Shown one piece after another: positions 10,011-16,659 of a stretch of 48,531 nucleotides of DNA. Origin of the DNA: an uncultured Fimbriimonas sp. (GTDB lineage Bacteria > Armatimonadota > Fimbriimonadia > Fimbriimonadales > Fimbriimonadaceae); NCBI GenBank assembly GCA_945952345.1, contig CAMFIS010000006.1, positions 1 to 48,531 of the forward strand, read 5' to 3'. Below the pieces are notes generated by a model, which saw only the letters and a program-made list of their open reading frames with translations, ran no database searches and was not told the origin of the DNA. The position numbers and the translations under genes were made by a program. The stretch's first letter is position 1; every line of letters begins with the position of its first letter.

Positions 10011-10048
10011 TTGCAACGAAAGTGCGAAAAATTTCGCACTTATTGCAA
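10011..10048. repeat. Perfect 10-bp palindrome flanked by TTGCAA boxes
   Basis: AAGTGCGAAA (10020-10029), AA, TTTCGCACTT (10032-10041) is a perfect dyad. TTGCAA occurs on both sides (10011-10016 and 10043-10048). It lies 66 bases before the blaI-like start. It could be the 3' hairpin of the CorC gene (no T-run) or part of the promoter region. Confidence 0.6.
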
Positions 10049-10066: not shown

Positions 10067-10082
10067 TGTTAATCTTTTAACA
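10067..10082. promoter_or_regulatory. Candidate BlaI-type operator
   Basis: TGTTAA-TCTT-TTAACA is a perfect 6-bp dyad about 25 bases before the repressor's start codon. BlaI/MecI/CopY dimers bind short dyads (TACA/TGTA-like in studied cases) in their own promoter. The match in architecture is good; the core differs. Confidence 0.4.
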
Positions 10083-10106
10083 TGTCAGTTTCGTCGAGGT
10101 GCATCG

Positions 10107-10499
10107 ATGCCTAAAATGCATGGCCGAGGGCTGAGCCGCAGGGAGCGAGAGATTCTCGATATTCTCCATCGGCTCGGCAAAGCAAGTGTGCAGGACGTGA
10201 GCGATGCGATGGAGAACCCGCCGTCGTACTCCTCGGTGCGCACCATCCTGGGAATCCTCGTCGAGAAAGGCATTGCCAACCACGAGGAGGATGGCAAGCG
10301 ATACCTGTACAGCGCAGCCGAGTCGTCGCAAGACGCCGCAAAAAGCGCCGTGAATAAGCTCGTCGATACATTCTTTGGGGGACGATTGGAAGGCGTTGTG
10401 CGTACTTTCTTGTCAGACAAAGAGTCGCAAATGTCCGATGAGGAATTGGACGAATTGGTTCGGCTGATTAATCAGTCGAAACGGGGTAAGGGGAAATGA
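10107..10499 (+). CDS. BlaI/MecI/CopY-family transcriptional repressor
   Basis: This 130-residue winged-helix repressor carries the family landmarks LSRREREILDILHRLGKASVQDV, SYSSVRTILGILVEKG (recognition helix) and RYLYSA, followed by a helical dimerisation tail. BlaI-type repressors bind as dimers and are inactivated when their partner M56 protease is activated by an envelope signal. Start at ATG 10107, with GAGG spaced 7-8 bases away; an upstream in-frame TTG at 10011 would add a non-family segment. The stop overlaps the next ATG (ATGA at 10496-10499), coupling repressor and protease. The dyad at 10067-10082 suggests autoregulation. Confidence 0.93.
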   Translation: MPKMHGRGLSRREREILDILHRLGKASVQDVSDAMENPPSYSSVRTILGILVEKGIANHEEDGKRYLYSAAESSQDAAKSAVNKLVDTFFGGRLEGVVRTFLSDKESQMSDEELDELVRLINQSKRGKGK

Positions 10500-12112
10500 A
10501 GTCGGTATTGATCGAATTCGGTCTGCGGTCGGTGGTGATCGCGGCAGTCTGCTTGTTAGTTCGCTTCGCGCTCATTAAGGCTTCGGCCCACTCTCGGGCT
10601 CGGGTCCTCTCGATCGGACTGGCTGGGCTTTTTGCGCTACCCATCGTCATGGTTCTCATTCCTCGAGTGCCCGTGGTCGTTGCTCGCTACCAAGAGGTCG
10701 CCATGGCTTCGGCAGGAAATGCCCAGCCGGCTCCCGCATCCACGCCACTTCCCTATGCCTCGCTCGTCCTGGCCGTTGCAGTTCTCCTCTTCGTTCGGCA
10801 AGCCCTAATTCTCATCCGGTTTAATCTGATGCAACGTGCCATGCAGCCGGCTCCCGAAGAGATTTCAAATCGGGTGCGTGGTCTCTCAAGGCTGGTGCGC
10901 TCGATCCTCTTTAGCCCCACCGGCGAGCCTCCGATGACATGGGGAGTGGTGCGACCCAAGATTGCTCTGCCCTCCGACTCGGAAACATGGGCCGACTCGA
11001 AGTTCCGCTCTGTTGTTCTCCATGAGGATGCCCACATCCGCCGCCGAGACTGGGCGATCTCGATTGGTTACCGGTTTGCCACGGCTATCTTCTGGTTCAA
11101 TCCGTTGGTTTGGGCTATGCGCACCCTCTATGAAGTGGACAGCGAGCGAGCTGCGGACGACGCGGTACTCGCCACCGGAATCGATCCTTCGGAGTATGCC
11201 GAGCGTTTGGTCGAAGTTGCCTATCAACTACGGGGATCCAAACACGCAATCCCAGCCGTAACTATGGCGCGAACGGCCCGCTTGAAGGGACGACTGAAGT
11301 CGATCCTCAACTCATCTTCGGCTCGCAACCCACTTCGAGGTTGGACCAACTTGTCAGTGCTCGGCGTCCTCGCCCTGGCGGGCATTGGGGCAAGTGTGGT
11401 CGGACCGGTGGTTGAGCGAATTCCCGCCGAAATCAAGCGGGACTTCATTGCCCGGGGCGCTGATCTCGACTTCAATGTCGATGCCACCCCCGACGTCTCC
11501 CTTACGGTCGATGCTCCGTCGGTTCCCGTGAACAGCTCAACAACGACAATTCCGAAAGGGCACCCCGCTGTGGTCTTGACCAGCAATCCCCCCGTCGACC
11601 GCGAGAGGATGACGGCAGAAGACCAGCGACAACTAGCCAAAATTCACCAGATCGGCGACAAGTTCGGCGAACTTGGAGACAAGATCGGCCAGTTGGGGGC
11701 GGAGTACGGACAACTCCAGGCAAAGCGTGAGCAGGCGAAAGCGGAGTCTAACGCCTCGGGCGAATTCACGATGGACGACACAGATTTCGATAACGACGGC
11801 TCGTTTAAGAAGTCGATGGATGAAGCCCAACGCGAAGTCGACAAGAGCCTCAAAGAGGCTCAGCGCGACATTGAAAAGGCCTTCGGTTCGAATCCGCATT
11901 CCAAAGCGGCCAAAGCCACGATGAGCCTCGCGAAGGATATTTCAAGTGCGGCGCTCAAGTTTGCCGCCCAGTTTGGCAAGATCAAAGTTCCGAACATGAA
12001 GGTGGACGGCAAGAAGATCGAAGTCCAGACCAAAGCCAAGAGTAAGAAGTCGTGTGATCCAGACAAGGTCTCGATCACGGTAGGAGGCGATCCTGACGAC
12101 GATGACAAGTAA
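10496..12112 (+). CDS. BlaR1/MecR1-type M56 membrane protease with coiled-coil tail
   Basis: This 538-residue sensor-protease is the expected partner of the upstream repressor. Seen: membrane segments near 5-28, 36-60, 83-108 and 286-306; the gluzincin motif HEDAH (H176, E177, H180) on the cytoplasmic loop; and a downstream ligand candidate E218 in SERAADDAV. In BlaR1 an external penicillin-binding domain follows the last membrane segment. Here that domain is absent. In its place are three 7-residue repeats (GDKFGEL GDKIGQL GAEYGQL, about 388-408) and an amphipathic helix rich in Glu, Lys and Gln (EAQREVDKSLKEAQ), then an acidic tail. The ligand is therefore probably not a beta-lactam. The helix resembles the C-terminal helix of the next gene's product. 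Confidence 0.9.
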   Translation: MKSVLIEFGLRSVVIAAVCLLVRFALIKASAHSRARVLSIGLAGLFALPIVMVLIPRVPVVVARYQEVAMASAGNAQPAPASTPLPYASLVLAVAVLLFVRQALILIRFNLMQRAMQPAPEEISNRVRGLSRLVRSILFSPTGEPPMTWGVVRPKIALPSDSETWADSKFRSVVLHEDAHIRRRDWAISIGYRFATAIFWFNPLVWAMRTLYEVDSERAADDAVLATGIDPSEYAERLVEVAYQLRGSKHAIPAVTMARTARLKGRLKSILNSSSARNPLRGWTNLSVLGVLALAGIGASVVGPVVERIPAEIKRDFIARGADLDFNVDATPDVSLTVDAPSVPVNSSTTTIPKGHPAVVLTSNPPVDRERMTAEDQRQLAKIHQIGDKFGELGDKIGQLGAEYGQLQAKREQAKAESNASGEFTMDDTDFDNDGSFKKSMDEAQREVDKSLKEAQRDIEKAFGSNPHSKAAKATMSLAKDISSAALKFAAQFGKIKVPNMKVDGKKIEVQTKAKSKKSCDPDKVSITVGGDPDDDDK

Positions 12113-12226
12113 CCGACCGTAGGTTCAAATTCTCGTCCACTTAAGCTCCCGGGAACCACCCGCCAGCTACCGCTTTGCCTGAAATTTGCCCCGACGGCAG
12201 GGGCGCAAACCATAAGGAAAACTCTC

Positions 12227-13432
12227 ATGATAAACAAAACAACGATCGTTCTTGGCCTGGCCCTGCTCAGCATCGCCGGCTTTACCTTGGCACGTCCGGG
12301 CCACGGACCAGAACCAATGGACAAACAGGTCCTCATCCAGAAGAATTCTGCAGATGGTCCTTCGAAATCCTGGTCGGCGACGATGCCAGCGTCCGCCGCA
12401 AAGCATGTTCGAATCGAATTGCAAATCGGCGATGTGCAGGTCTCGACGGGTAACAGTTCCGACGTAAAAGCTGACTTCACCAAGAAGATCGGCAAAGATA
12501 GCGGCGCTGACGACAAGGCGTGGCTAAACGGCGATTGGATCGAAGCCCGCCGCGAAGGAGACACCATTGTCATCTCGGAGAACGAGTCGAAGAAGCCGAA
12601 GTTCGATAAGAACAGTAAGGGACATCACCTCGATCTCACCGCCAAGATTTCCGTTCCTCGCGGGATCGACCTCGAAACCAAGGTGATGGCTGGCTCGCTG
12701 GATGTGAAGGGCGACTATGGCCAGCTGCAAGGAAAGGTCGATGCTGGCGAGGTGCACGCGTCGGAAGTCTCGGTCGATCAGTCGGTCAAGCTGAAGGTTG
12801 GTGCAGGCGAGATTCACGCAAACTTCACTCGGTCGCCGCGTGAAGCATCCGAACTCGAAGTAGGGGTTGGAGAGATCGGTCTGGACCTCAAAGGCGACGC
12901 GACTCTGAACGTCGAGGTTGGCATTGGCAATGTCGAAGGTGGACCGAAGTCCAAAGGTGATGACGACGAGGGGCTCGGCAACAAGCAGAAAGTCACACTT
13001 GGTAACGGCGGCACCACCATCCACGTCAAGGTTGGCGCCGGCAACGTCTCGATCGGTCAGGGCAAGTCAGCCAAGTCGACCAAGAAACATGGCGACCTGA
13101 GCTTCAACTTCGACGGCAACGGGATTGGCGATCATGACATTGATTTCGACTTCGACAAGGACCTTGGGAAGGATATTCAGCGAGAAATCGAGGAGTCGAT
13201 GAAGCAGGTTGACGTCGAGGTCAAGCGCGCTTTGGAGCAAGCTCAGAAGGAAATCGAGCGAGCCAAGAAAGAATCGGGACACGAGATCGACGACAAGGAC
13301 CTCTCGCCGGAGGCACGAGCGATCGCCCAAGATGCGATGAAGGTCGCGCAAAGGGCCATGGAACTTGCCCAGAAAGAACTCCAAAAGGCGCTGAAGAAGG
13401 GCTGGAAAGAGCACAAGAATGAATCGTTCTAA
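12227..13432 (+). CDS. Secreted DUF4097-like (adhesin-type) protein with helical tail
   Basis: A 401-residue exported protein: signal peptide MINKTTIVLGLALLSIAGFTLA (1-22), then a beta-rich region (about 45-285) with the repeating strand pattern of DUF4097/DUF2807 putative adhesins (LETKVMAGSLDVKGDYGQLQ, VDAGEVHASEVS, VGVGEIGLDL). The last 100 residues are highly charged and helical (QREIEESMKQVDVEVKRALE, AQKEIERAKKESG). This tail resembles the coiled-coil tail of the M56 protease just upstream. Start ATG 12227 has a good AAGGA ribosome-binding site. A GC-rich hairpin (TTTGCCCC ... GGGGCGCAAA, about 12185-12212) precedes it. The stop lies inside the next gene. It is probably the periplasmic or surface partner of the BlaI/M56 system. 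Confidence 0.75.
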   Translation: MINKTTIVLGLALLSIAGFTLARPGHGPEPMDKQVLIQKNSADGPSKSWSATMPASAAKHVRIELQIGDVQVSTGNSSDVKADFTKKIGKDSGADDKAWLNGDWIEARREGDTIVISENESKKPKFDKNSKGHHLDLTAKISVPRGIDLETKVMAGSLDVKGDYGQLQGKVDAGEVHASEVSVDQSVKLKVGAGEIHANFTRSPREASELEVGVGEIGLDLKGDATLNVEVGIGNVEGGPKSKGDDDEGLGNKQKVTLGNGGTTIHVKVGAGNVSIGQGKSAKSTKKHGDLSFNFDGNGIGDHDIDFDFDKDLGKDIQREIEESMKQVDVEVKRALEQAQKEIERAKKESGHEIDDKDLSPEARAIAQDAMKVAQRAMELAQKELQKALKKGWKEHKNESF

Positions 13433-15437
13433 GCTCTTTTGTTTCCTTGTCGGGGCGGTTGTGATGGCGACCGCCTTCGGGCAAGCCTCGCTTTCGACTC
13501 GTATCGAGAATCCAGTTCCCCCCACCGGGAACTGGAACCGGGAGAGACACCACATACCGGCTGCCGACGTGGCCCCGAAAATCGACGGCGTGCTCGATGA
13601 GCCCTGTTGGAAATCGGCGTTCCACAGCTCAGGCTTCTATCGCTTTATTGGCAAGGAAGCGGTTCAAGAACAAACGGAGGTTTGGGTCTGCGCCGACAAG
13701 CATCGGCTCTACGTGGCTTTCCACTGTCTGGAGTCGCATCCCGAGTCTATCGTGGCGAAGGAAACCCAGCGCAACGGAACGCTTGAACACGACGACCGAA
13801 TCGGCGTGATCTTGGATACTCAAAATACGCATCGGGGGGCAAGTGTCTTTTGGGTCAGCGCCTGCGGAACCCAGAACCAGGAGTTGGAAGGCGGTTCGGC
13901 CGAGAACCAGGCTTGGCAGGGTGATTGGTCGGCGGCGACCAAACGAGTCGACGACGGATGGATTGTCGAGATGGCGATTCCTTTTCGAATGCTGAGGTAC
14001 CCAAAGAATGTCCACCGATTCGGTCTTCTCTTCGCTCGCAAGAAGGCTTCGGAAACTAATTTCACAACATGGCCCTATGCGCCACCTCAGGCGGACAACG
14101 GCCGGATCGCTGAGTATATGGACGAAATCGAGGGTATCAATCCTCCCAACTTTGCTCCCAGGCCGACGATCCTTCCTTACGCGCTCGGCACGGCTGGCGA
14201 TGGCAACTCGCTCCGCTTCGGGTTGGATATCAAGGCGCCGATCACGACGACGATGACCGGAGTCGCGACGATCAAGCCTGACTTTCAAACCGTTGAAGGG
14301 GCAGTGCAAGACCTTAGCTTCTCGTACACCGAGAAGTTCGTCCAAGATCGACGTCCGTTTTTCGCCGAAGGTGGGCAATTCATCGACGACCCTTACCTGT
14401 TCTATTCACAGAAGATCAGCGATGTGGACTACGGCTTGAAGCTGACGGGCAAACAGGGCCCGACCACCATCGGAGTTCTGGCCACGGCCGCCAATGTTGG
14501 CTCGCGACAGCAAGCGCAAATCGCAAACGTCGACCAGGAGCTTGGCAAGTACTCGAGCATCGGAGGGACTTTGCTTGAGAATCGGCAGGTTGGCTCCTTC
14601 GGGCAGATGACGCAGATGCGAGGCTCATACGGATGGGTGAAAGGGGTTTACAAAACGACATTCTCGGGGAATGCCACTCGAGTGTGGCTGGACAATAATC
14701 GTAGTGGCGACAGCTACTATGCCCAGGTTCGGATGCAGGGCGGAGCGGGCCATGTGAATGGCATGGCGTACCTTAACAAAGTCGATCCTAACTGCACGAA
14801 TCCTCTCGGGATTCAAGGCGACACAGACACCAAGGGCGGAGGACTGTACCTTTGGACTTTTCAAAACTATCCAAAGGGTTTCTTGGAGTCGTACTCGTAC
14901 AACTTCTCAGCCGAAACATTCTCTCACCTGAACGATCATCTCTTCCACCGCGGGGCGTCCCTCGGGGCAGAGTATGATTTTCGCAACGGCTCCTCGCTAA
15001 ATTGGGGATGGCAACAAGGAAGTCGAGACGCTTTCCAGGATCGCACCTACAGTCTGGGGCTGGGCTGGAACGCCAAGTCTCTACTCAGCAAAGGAATGAT
15101 CTCGGTCGACGAGGGTCGACGTGAGAACAAGCACTACCGTTTTACGGCGATTGGGCAGGGCCTTCCGGTCAACAAAGTGTTCTCGCTGAACCTAATCGCG
15201 GGGCAGCAATTGCTGGGGACGGAGATTGAGAACCAGGCCATCTTGAGCGGAACGTACCGCATCGATCCGATGCAGTCATTCGGCGGACGCCTCGTTGCGC
15301 AGGGCGGGAATACGAACCTGTACCTTTCGTACGGAAAACGGACTCGCAAAGGAAACGATCTGTTCATCCTCATCGGCGATCCAAACAGTGAAACCTTCCG
15401 ACACGCGATCTCGCTAAAGATGGTGTGGAGCCTTTAG
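13419..15437 (+). CDS. DUF5916 outer-membrane protein with CBM9-like N-terminal domain
   Basis: A 672-residue exported protein: signal peptide MNRSKLFCFLVGAVVMATAFG, then a carbohydrate-binding-module-9/DOMON-like domain (about 45-235: IDGVLDEPCWKSA, VWVCADKHRLYVAFHC, DRIGVILDTQNT, WIVEMAIPFRMLRY, FGLLFARKK). A long beta-strand-rich part follows (DUF5916, about 250-672) that ends in an amphipathic strand with aromatic residues (HAISLKMVWSL), as in outer-membrane barrels. The start overlaps the preceding gene by 14 bases, so it belongs to the same operon as the BlaI/M56 pair. DUF5916 members are thought to sit in the outer membrane; the ligand is unknown. A block of GCTCTGT tandem repeats follows. 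Confidence 0.85.
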   Translation: MNRSKLFCFLVGAVVMATAFGQASLSTRIENPVPPTGNWNRERHHIPAADVAPKIDGVLDEPCWKSAFHSSGFYRFIGKEAVQEQTEVWVCADKHRLYVAFHCLESHPESIVAKETQRNGTLEHDDRIGVILDTQNTHRGASVFWVSACGTQNQELEGGSAENQAWQGDWSAATKRVDDGWIVEMAIPFRMLRYPKNVHRFGLLFARKKASETNFTTWPYAPPQADNGRIAEYMDEIEGINPPNFAPRPTILPYALGTAGDGNSLRFGLDIKAPITTTMTGVATIKPDFQTVEGAVQDLSFSYTEKFVQDRRPFFAEGGQFIDDPYLFYSQKISDVDYGLKLTGKQGPTTIGVLATAANVGSRQQAQIANVDQELGKYSSIGGTLLENRQVGSFGQMTQMRGSYGWVKGVYKTTFSGNATRVWLDNNRSGDSYYAQVRMQGGAGHVNGMAYLNKVDPNCTNPLGIQGDTDTKGGGLYLWTFQNYPKGFLESYSYNFSAETFSHLNDHLFHRGASLGAEYDFRNGSSLNWGWQQGSRDAFQDRTYSLGLGWNAKSLLSKGMISVDEGRRENKHYRFTAIGQGLPVNKVFSLNLIAGQQLLGTEIENQAILSGTYRIDPMQSFGGRLVAQGGNTNLYLSYGKRTRKGNDLFILIGDPNSETFRHAISLKMVWSL

Positions 15438-15480
15438 AGTAAGCAGAGCTCAGGACTCAGAGCTCAGCCAAGGGTCCTGC

Positions 15481-15522
15481 GCTCTGTGCTCTGTGCTCTG
15501 TGCTCTGTGCTCTGTGCTCTGA
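15481..15522 (+). repeat. 7-bp tandem repeat (GCTCTGT x5 plus GCTCTGA)
   Basis: Five exact GCTCTGT units are followed by GCTCTGA. The 40 bases before them contain the reverse complement (CAGAGCTC at two places), so the transcript of the preceding operon could fold into a long slippery hairpin here. It lies 43 bases after the DUF5916 stop codon. Confidence 0.85.
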
Positions 15523-15648
15523 TATACTATTCTTCGCGCCTAGGTCGCCACCGGATCTGCGGGAAGGGTTAAACCCACCTATCATACGAACCTACATAAA
15601 AGCCTTTGTGCTCCTGTTCGCAGATCGCAGGACATGCATAGAGGACAT

Positions 15649-16659
15649 ATGAACAAACACCTTCCGGCTCGGCCGAATCTCGATCATCTCAAGCGACAAG
15701 CCAAGACCATTTTGGCGAACGCAGCTTCCGATTCCGCTTCTGCCTTTCGCGAACTCAATCTCGATCCGGCCATTGCCAAGCTCGCCGATGCTCAGCTTGT
15801 CGTCGCTCGTCAATATGGATTCGAGAGTTGGCCCAAGCTCGTCCATACCATCGAAACGCTGAACAACCTCGAGGGAACGTGGGCGTTCGAATCACTGGAA
15901 GTTGGCGGCAATTCCATTCCCGGTTCCGCATTAACCACCTCGACCTTGGTGATCAATGGCGATCGGTTTAACATGCTTTCGCCGGAGGGCGATTATCTGG
16001 GAGTCTTCAAGATCCGAATCTCGGAACCGAATGAGATCGACATTGATTTCATCGAAGGCCCCGAAGCGGGGAATTCTTGCTACGGAATCTTTCGTTTGGA
16101 GGGCAACAAGCTGACCTTCTGCCTTGGTTTGGTGGGAGCAGATCGGCCCCTTGAGTTTTCTTCGACGGGCAGTCCGAACCACGCCCTCGAAGTGCTTCGG
16201 CGTGTGACCAGCCAAGCTCCCGTCCGCGAGGCGGTTGCACCGGATAAGGTCGAAGCTCCAGTCGTGGAGACTGGCAATCTCGCCGACTTCCAAGAAATGA
16301 CGCCGGCAATGGCCGAGCTTCAGGGCGAATGGTTGCCGCTCGAAGTTGTCAACAGCGGGCAGCCACTGCCCCAAAACTTCCTGGCTCACGGGGCGCGAAA
16401 GTGCGAAGGAACCCGAACCACGGTGACCTTCGGTGGACAGAAGATGGTAGACGTCTTTGCCCGTGCTCATGCCGACGGAACGATCGACTACCTCGTGGCT
16501 TCGGGTCCGAAGAAAGATGCGCTGCAATTCGGGATTTACCGATTCGAAGATGACGTTCTCGTTGTGTGTATGGCGGAACCCGGAATGTCGCGGCCGAGCG
16601 ACTTCACCTCGGAGCCGGGCAGTGGGCACACGCTGACGAGGTGGCGGAAGAAGCAATAA
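15649..16659 (+). CDS. Protein with two TIGR03067-type domains
   Basis: This 336-residue protein has no clear signal peptide. The N-terminus (LPARPNLDHLKRQAKTILAN ... LADAQLVVARQYGFESWPKL, about 3-63) is the helical 'ankyrin-leader' segment common in proteins of this kind. Two copies of the TIGR03067 beta domain follow: about 70-190 (LEGTWAFESLEVGGNSIPGS ... GNKLTFCLGLVGADRPLEFS) and about 225-334 (LQGEWLPLEV ... DDVLVVCMAEPGMSRPSDFT). That domain was first described as a planctomycete paralogous family. Function unknown. Start ATG 15649 has GAGG 4 bases upstream; an in-frame ATG at 15634 is less well placed. The gene is convergent with the DUF2339 gene across a nested palindrome. Confidence 0.85.
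   Translation: MNKHLPARPNLDHLKRQAKTILANAASDSASAFRELNLDPAIAKLADAQLVVARQYGFESWPKLVHTIETLNNLEGTWAFESLEVGGNSIPGSALTTSTLVINGDRFNMLSPEGDYLGVFKIRISEPNEIDIDFIEGPEAGNSCYGIFRLEGNKLTFCLGLVGADRPLEFSSTGSPNHALEVLRRVTSQAPVREAVAPDKVEAPVVETGNLADFQEMTPAMAELQGEWLPLEVVNSGQPLPQNFLAHGARKCEGTRTTVTFGGQKMVDVFARAHADGTIDYLVASGPKKDALQFGIYRFEDDVLVVCMAEPGMSRPSDFTSEPGSGHTLTRWRKKQ

Follow-up and report, generated by a model that had tools for sequence, protein, structure and literature searches.

The window analysed here, a 48,531-nucleotide stretch of DNA from an uncultured Fimbriimonas sp. of the phylum Armatimonadota, lies within contig 6 of a draft genome of 4.0 Mb (G000 in our comparison set). It contains four consecutive genes, for a BlaI/MecI-type repressor, an M56 protease, an exported partner protein and a DUF5916 protein (Table 1). 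We consider that these genes are best explained overall as an envelope-dedicated operon that BlaI represses and M56 controls, a reading that we hold to be probable. We are more confident still in the circuit itself, in which BlaI would act on two operators and M56 would relieve repression of all four products, as conserved sequence and knowledge of BlaR1 both suggest. Comparison across genomes supports the gene content and its conservation, the operator pair, the narrow regulon and a similarity between the C-terminal tails of the M56 protein and its partner. A self-contained BlaI/M56 circuit had been proposed from a sequence-only reading of this DNA, and that proposal is supported by the operator pair at blaI and by a relocated barrel gene that carries the same promoter.

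Gene content, putative operators and a relocated barrel gene

The coordinates of the open reading frames (ORFs) confirmed the layout expected from the sequence-only reading, with four co-directional genes and overlaps within the first and last pairs. The blaI and M56 genes share 4 nt (ATGA), the exported-partner and DUF5916 genes share 14 nt, and 114 nt separate the M56 gene from the exported-partner gene. The BlaI-type assignment was borne out by a full-length match to the Penicillinase_R winged-helix family (Pfam PF03965, E 1.1e-26) and by matches to MecI and BlaI structures. The N-terminal half of the M56 protein matched Peptidase_M56 (Pfam, E 3.5e-27), and the protein aligned with the Staphylococcus aureus BlaR1 structure 8exs across the zinc motifs, H176-E177-x-x-H180 and E217xxxD221, in which H176, E177, H180, E217 and D221 are kept in 6/6 orthologues. 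BlaI has a putative cleavage site at T100-F101 (codons 10404-10409) within an RTFLS motif that is invariant in 6/6 orthologues; in BlaI, the Phe directly after the position cut by BlaR1 is known to matter (PMC9834060). The fourth protein also proved to be as predicted, matching DUF5916 (Pfam, E 9.9e-7, 28.3 bits against a cut-off of 22.6) with CBM9_1 at its N terminus (E 1.5e-5, 25.4 bits against a cut-off of 23.4). A sequence search found no solved structure related to it, and it stays an apparent outer-membrane barrel.

Co-occurrence of the four families, proposed earlier as a check, was found in five congeneric genomes (G000, G002, G004, G008 and G017), with the same layout in a second family of the phylum. 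One further genome (G005) has only blaI, M56 and the exported-partner gene. The full-length exported family was present in 6/113 genomes of the order and 6/291 of the phylum, every time in this operon, and none of the 14 other blaI–M56 pairs listed had this exported partner or this barrel beside it. The operon barrels form a subfamily of their own, scoring above 1200 bits where other barrels in the order reach about 350 or less, and neither blaI nor M56 was found in the neighbourhood of 20 loci encoding other DUF5916 barrels.

In the second family, two genomes (G151, L138; G152, L158) follow the same gene order, from blaI through M56 and a tail protein to a DUF5916 barrel; in G151, a short run of masked bases (N) breaks the M56 gene, and the contig ends within the barrel. 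A third genome (G153, L157) keeps only blaI, M56 and the tail-protein gene at this locus, and its barrel lies on a separate contig. The exported partners in G151 and G152 are 225-233 amino acids long. Partners in this family combine a signal-like start with helices and an acidic DFDFDF stretch; no Toastrack domain, the fold of the partner in the window's genus (see below), was found in them, and the helical tail is what persists in the partner between the two families. In the tree, the second-family barrels group among barrels outside such operons, and a common clade with the operon barrels of the window's genus was rejected by an approximately unbiased (AU) test (p 1.2e-5), for which the barrel group was chosen with the tree already seen and not blind. 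Vertical descent from a single ancestor with all four genes is thus rejected for the barrel. The barrels of the two families did not come from one operon, and therefore either the module arose on two occasions or one barrel was exchanged for another.

Upstream of blaI, a pair of TGY-N10-RCA dyads was present in 6/6 congeneric operons at a spacing of 42-44 bp, the counterparts of the proximal dyad (such as TGCTAATCTTTCAGCA) keeping that spacing. The density of this motif was 5.45 per kb upstream of the orthologous blaI genes, compared with 0.21 per kb in surrounding DNA and 0.18 per kb in shuffles. The distal dyad is the sole match in the window and the sole exact match in the whole genome. A genome-wide search with the proximal dyad returned matches with 0-2 mismatches solely at this operon in five other genomes; the proximal dyad of the window's own genome has three mismatches to the consensus and fell among chance-level matches. 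No further chromosomal operator target emerged in the window's genus, the remaining genome-wide matches being at chance level. The proximal dyad overlaps a sigma70-like -10 element in four genomes (G004, G005, G008 and G017).

The second family has its own dyads, TATACGAA-N4-TTCGTATA and TTACGAAACCnTTCGTATA, of which TTACGAAACCnTTCGTATA fits between the two hexamers of a TTGnAA-17-TATAAT promoter. The strongest evidence for the dyads as an operator, and for the barrel as a member of the regulon, comes from G153, because its relocated barrel carries a complete double-operator promoter (TTGnAA-17-TATAAT) about 160 bp 5' of the start codon. The proximal dyad there is an exact match, and by our estimate the chance expectation of an 18-base exact match in 5.4 Mb is about 2e-4, given equal base frequencies. 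Second-family barrels inside the operon have no such dyad directly upstream. Assignment of the putative operators and of the regulon is well supported by these comparisons.

Operator-like sequences were also seen elsewhere. A copy of the second-family operator with two mismatches (L209, G153:C348:2199-2217) lies 5' of a gene for a 330-amino-acid exported protein, which is possibly a third target of the second-family BlaI. Most blaI paralogues at L045-L058 have dyads with the same geometry and other bases (TGCCAG.., TGCCAA.., TGTTAT..), often paired 42-44 bp apart, and these dyads are a readable code of putative paralogue-specific operators. One of them, GGTGCTAATTTATTAGCATG (L054, 5' of a paralogous blaI at G004:C7:39607), is close to the dyad of the operon described here, and cross-talk between two BlaI proteins is therefore possible in G004.

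Around the operon, a CNNM/CorC gene upstream ends 111 bp 5' of blaI. On the other side, a short tandem repeat with a unit of about 7 bases (TGCTCTG) follows directly at 15480-15523, and positions 15634-16656 encode a protein in which two 'G-x-W' domains (LEGTWAFES.., LQGEWLPLE..) resemble each other; Pfam gave no significant match for it. The ORFs and Pfam matches of the four-gene operon included no PspA, PspC, LiaI-LiaF or two-component genes.

Table 1. Operon genes, protein segments and operator-like dyads, in window coordinates
Feature	Position	Strand	Description
Distal operator-like dyad	10020-10041	.	AAGTGCGAAAAATTTCGCACTT; core TGCGAAAAATTTCGCA at 10023-10038, perfect palindrome
Proximal operator-like dyad	10067-10082	.	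TGTTAATCTTTTAACA; 44 bp from distal dyad
blaI	10107-10499	+	BlaI/MecI-type repressor, 130 aa
M56 protease gene	10496-12112	+	538 aa
M56 C-terminal tail, predicted extracytoplasmic	11414-12109	+	Helical repeats, with helices inside residues 374-493 and 11-residue repeats across 445-466
Exported partner gene	12227-13432	+	401 aa; signal-peptide-like N terminus
Toastrack domain (predicted)	12326-13081	+	Partner residues 34-285; AlphaFold2 model and 4QRK match
Partner helical tail	13163-13426	+	Residues 313-400; 11-residue repeats
DUF5916/CBM9 gene	13419-15437	+	672 aa; apparent outer-membrane barrel

The protease tail and the exported partner

The final membrane helix of the M56 protein lies at about residues 288-306 by hydropathy, and beyond it are about 230 residues without a known domain. 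Pfam and NCBIfam scans of this protein gave no match to a penicillin-binding or transpeptidase sensor domain, in line with the earlier proposal that such a sensor is missing, and the NCBIfam model blaR1_generic, whose cut-off is 400 bits, reached 52. The topology of BlaR1 (PMC9834060) implies that the C-terminal part of the M56 protein faces the periplasm, from which it follows that the tail would be the sensor element.

By eye, the extracytoplasmic tails of several M56 paralogues (L044 in the window's own genome, G000:C123, and L046, L048, L050, L051 and L057) resemble the C termini of DUF1559/H-X9-DG pseudopilins, with a 'YAQDYDD...YVDGHAK' motif; a Pfam scan of L044 and L048 reported no DUF1559-type domain.

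The partner opens with a hydrophobic signal-like segment, followed by a predicted Toastrack domain and a C terminus that an AlphaFold2 model renders as two long helices. By block, the predicted local distance difference test (pLDDT) score of this model is mostly 80-96 at residues 51-220 and falls toward the C-terminal part of the Toastrack domain. The model matches 4QRK (Foldseek E 4e-11; VIA Z 14.1) and 4OPW, both of them structures cited for the Toastrack fold. The sequence-only reading had called this protein DUF4097-like. That label fell below the Pfam cut-off and found support in an NCBIfam match to LiaG (E 5e-4) and in the predicted Toastrack fold, a fold defined from DUF4097, DUF2154 and DUF2807 with the same PDB entries and argued to be usually cytosolic (PMC11237479).

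A resemblance had been noted between a helix of the M56 tail (EAQREVDKSLKEAQ, residues 443-456, about 11822-11863) and the tail of the exported protein (KRALEQAQKEIERAKK, residues 333-348), and heptad-like repeats had been noted in the protease. The resemblance itself stood, exceeding shuffles across the orthologues; an 11-residue (hendecad) repeat suits the shared pattern better than a heptad, most visibly in the exported tails. Partner tails have an 11-residue period (at lag 11, z is about 10 for G005 and G017, and 1.8-3.2 in the others) and bigger helical moments at the hendecad angle, and M56 tails show both heptad and 11-residue lags. A heptad coiled coil as the common feature was rejected, since the exported tails favour the 11-residue period.

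We trained a score matrix on partner tails from other genomes and applied it to the M56 tail, with 300 shuffles. In 5/6 genomes, the M56 tail scored above all tested ORFs except the exported proteins and sibling M56 proteins, above all 300 shuffles and higher than each of the 13 paralogous M56 tails, whose best scores were 9.5-18 compared with 23-31 for the operon M56 tails in these five genomes. In 9/9 operons, local alignment of the M56 tail with that of its partner scored about 4-7 standard deviations over the residue-shuffle mean. An exported 364-amino-acid protein encoded away from any blaI (L162, 5019-6113, in G048) was matched by the M56 model and the partner model alike, and contains a helical segment, MTTEERAQFEKEMVKAKAEIQKAMKE.

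A proposed circuit and its alternatives

In the proposed circuit, BlaI dimers bound at both dyads, which lie some four helical turns from each other, would keep a single promoter off. The M56 protein would retain the membrane-protease core of BlaR1 toward the cytoplasm and use the flexible helical-repeat tail as its extracytoplasmic sensor. A periplasmic change, which we infer to be the stimulus, would be felt by this tail and activate the zinc site, and BlaI would then be cut before the invariant Phe. The operon would switch on, yielding more repressor, sensor, exported Toastrack/helical protein and DUF5916 barrel. A role in envelope stress is suggested by the location of the proteins and the known associations of Toastrack.

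The shared 11-residue repeat makes the partner the best candidate ligand of the M56 tail, and we propose tentatively, at somewhat below an even chance, that the partner is what this tail binds. Contact between the tails could act in a homeostatic way, in which free partner would quiet the sensor until demand from the envelope or the barrel draws it off. As to the sign of the feedback, we lean modestly toward such silencing over activation by the partner. The fullest version is rather doubtful: the M56 and partner tails would form a mixed helical assembly by way of their common 11-residue repeat, and the cell would read how much of a barrel-tied envelope protein is free and adjust the operon through destruction of BlaI, in a module assembled twice.

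Several observations weigh against the overall interpretation. The M56 structure model is poor (mean pLDDT 50), giving the tail, at low confidence, a mixture of disorder and helices, and was dropped as too weak a guide to the sensor fold. The M56 tail of G008 fails the repeat test, the 11-residue pattern was picked after the tails had been inspected, and shuffles of 7-residue blocks match the observed tail score in 0-9 of 300 cases, Ala/Glu/Lys helices being easily alike. Cognate preference of the tail pairs was sought and none was seen in the scores, cognate pairs faring no better than those of other species; charge complementarity was rejected as inconsistent, judged by the net charges of the M56 and partner tails. 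The window's own copy of the operon has no obvious promoter hexamers. G005 does not have the barrel and the second-family partners do not have the Toastrack domain, so neither is essential to the circuit.

One alternative comes close to an even chance, namely that regulation works as proposed and the tails are alike merely as generic exported Ala/Glu/Lys-rich helices. The M56 tail would then sense peptidoglycan, the membrane or another protein, and the exported protein and the barrel would be induced effectors. The missing cognate preference and the weak G008 score are consistent with this explanation, as are the comparable helical segments of other exported proteins, such as that in G048, and several M56 paralogues that have unrelated or long coiled-coil tails and no such partner. 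Against it, the repeat matrix gives the tails of M56 paralogues lower scores, and the similarity recurs in the second family, in which the partner has no Toastrack domain and little beyond the tail.

It is unlikely that the partner activates the sensor, as the sequence-only reading had it, with the exported protein or its free tail acting on the M56 tail to trigger BlaI cleavage in a positive-feedback switch. The partner is encoded together with the sensor and the repeat is common to both, but nothing in these data separates this possibility from the inhibitory one, and an operon product that induces itself requires an additional brake. A cell-wall antibiotic response, in which M56 would report peptidoglycan damage by means other than a penicillin-binding protein (PBP) domain and the operon would be a resistance module, is suggested by the BlaI/M56 ancestry but is very improbable, given the same envelope gene set in nine genomes with no added PBP or beta-lactamase gene and an M56 protein without a PBP domain.

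Relation to known systems

Like BlaI–BlaR1 and MecI–MecR1 of Staphylococcus and Bacillus, the operon has a BlaI-type repressor gene that overlaps the gene for a four-helix M56 zinc protease with HExxH and ExxxD motifs, a Phe at the repressor cleavage position and putative operators at its own promoter. Unlike them, it has a helical periplasmic tail in place of a PBP-like sensor, its targets are exported and apparent outer-membrane proteins, and its putative operator has a different sequence, TGY-N10-RCA in the window's genus and TACGAA-N4-TTCGTA in the second family. The operon would work like BlaI/BlaR1 but does not have the sensor that defines BlaR1, and it is a variant of that kind. M. tuberculosis BlaR is likewise said to be without a classical sensor.

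Our literature search, for which subscription journals were mostly out of reach, found no paper joining BlaI/M56 with Toastrack or DUF5916, and none on DUF5916. Compared with other DUF5916/CBM9 proteins, the operon barrels have the same domain order and length but form their own subfamily, and no BlaI or M56 gene adjoins the related barrels that were checked. The Toastrack fold and its proposed role in envelope stress are common to LiaG and the Toastrack proteins of PSP and Lia systems; those proteins are considered mostly cytosolic and tied to two-component, PadR or sigma regulators, whereas the one described here is exported with a helical tail (PMC11237479; its main text names neither BlaI nor MecI).

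The BlaI_0696 and BlaI_1845 regulons of Clostridium thermocellum also comprise one or few autoregulated operons, with ordered clusters of operator sites for four protomers and genes for BlaR1 and hypothetical proteins; they differ in belonging to a Gram-positive bacterium, with no helical partner or barrel described there (PMC8457756). BlaI/BlaR1 has been studied almost wholly as a beta-lactam switch, and here the same chassis appears to run an envelope operon through a different sensor, tying exported Toastrack and DUF5916 proteins, two uncharacterised families, to a defined regulator. These loci supply concrete sequences with which to ask what an M56 protease detects when it has no penicillin sensor, an operator code legible across paralogues and, in the relocated barrel, a ready natural experiment. 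The presence of this layout in two families of the phylum suggests an unexplored bacterial mode of envelope monitoring.

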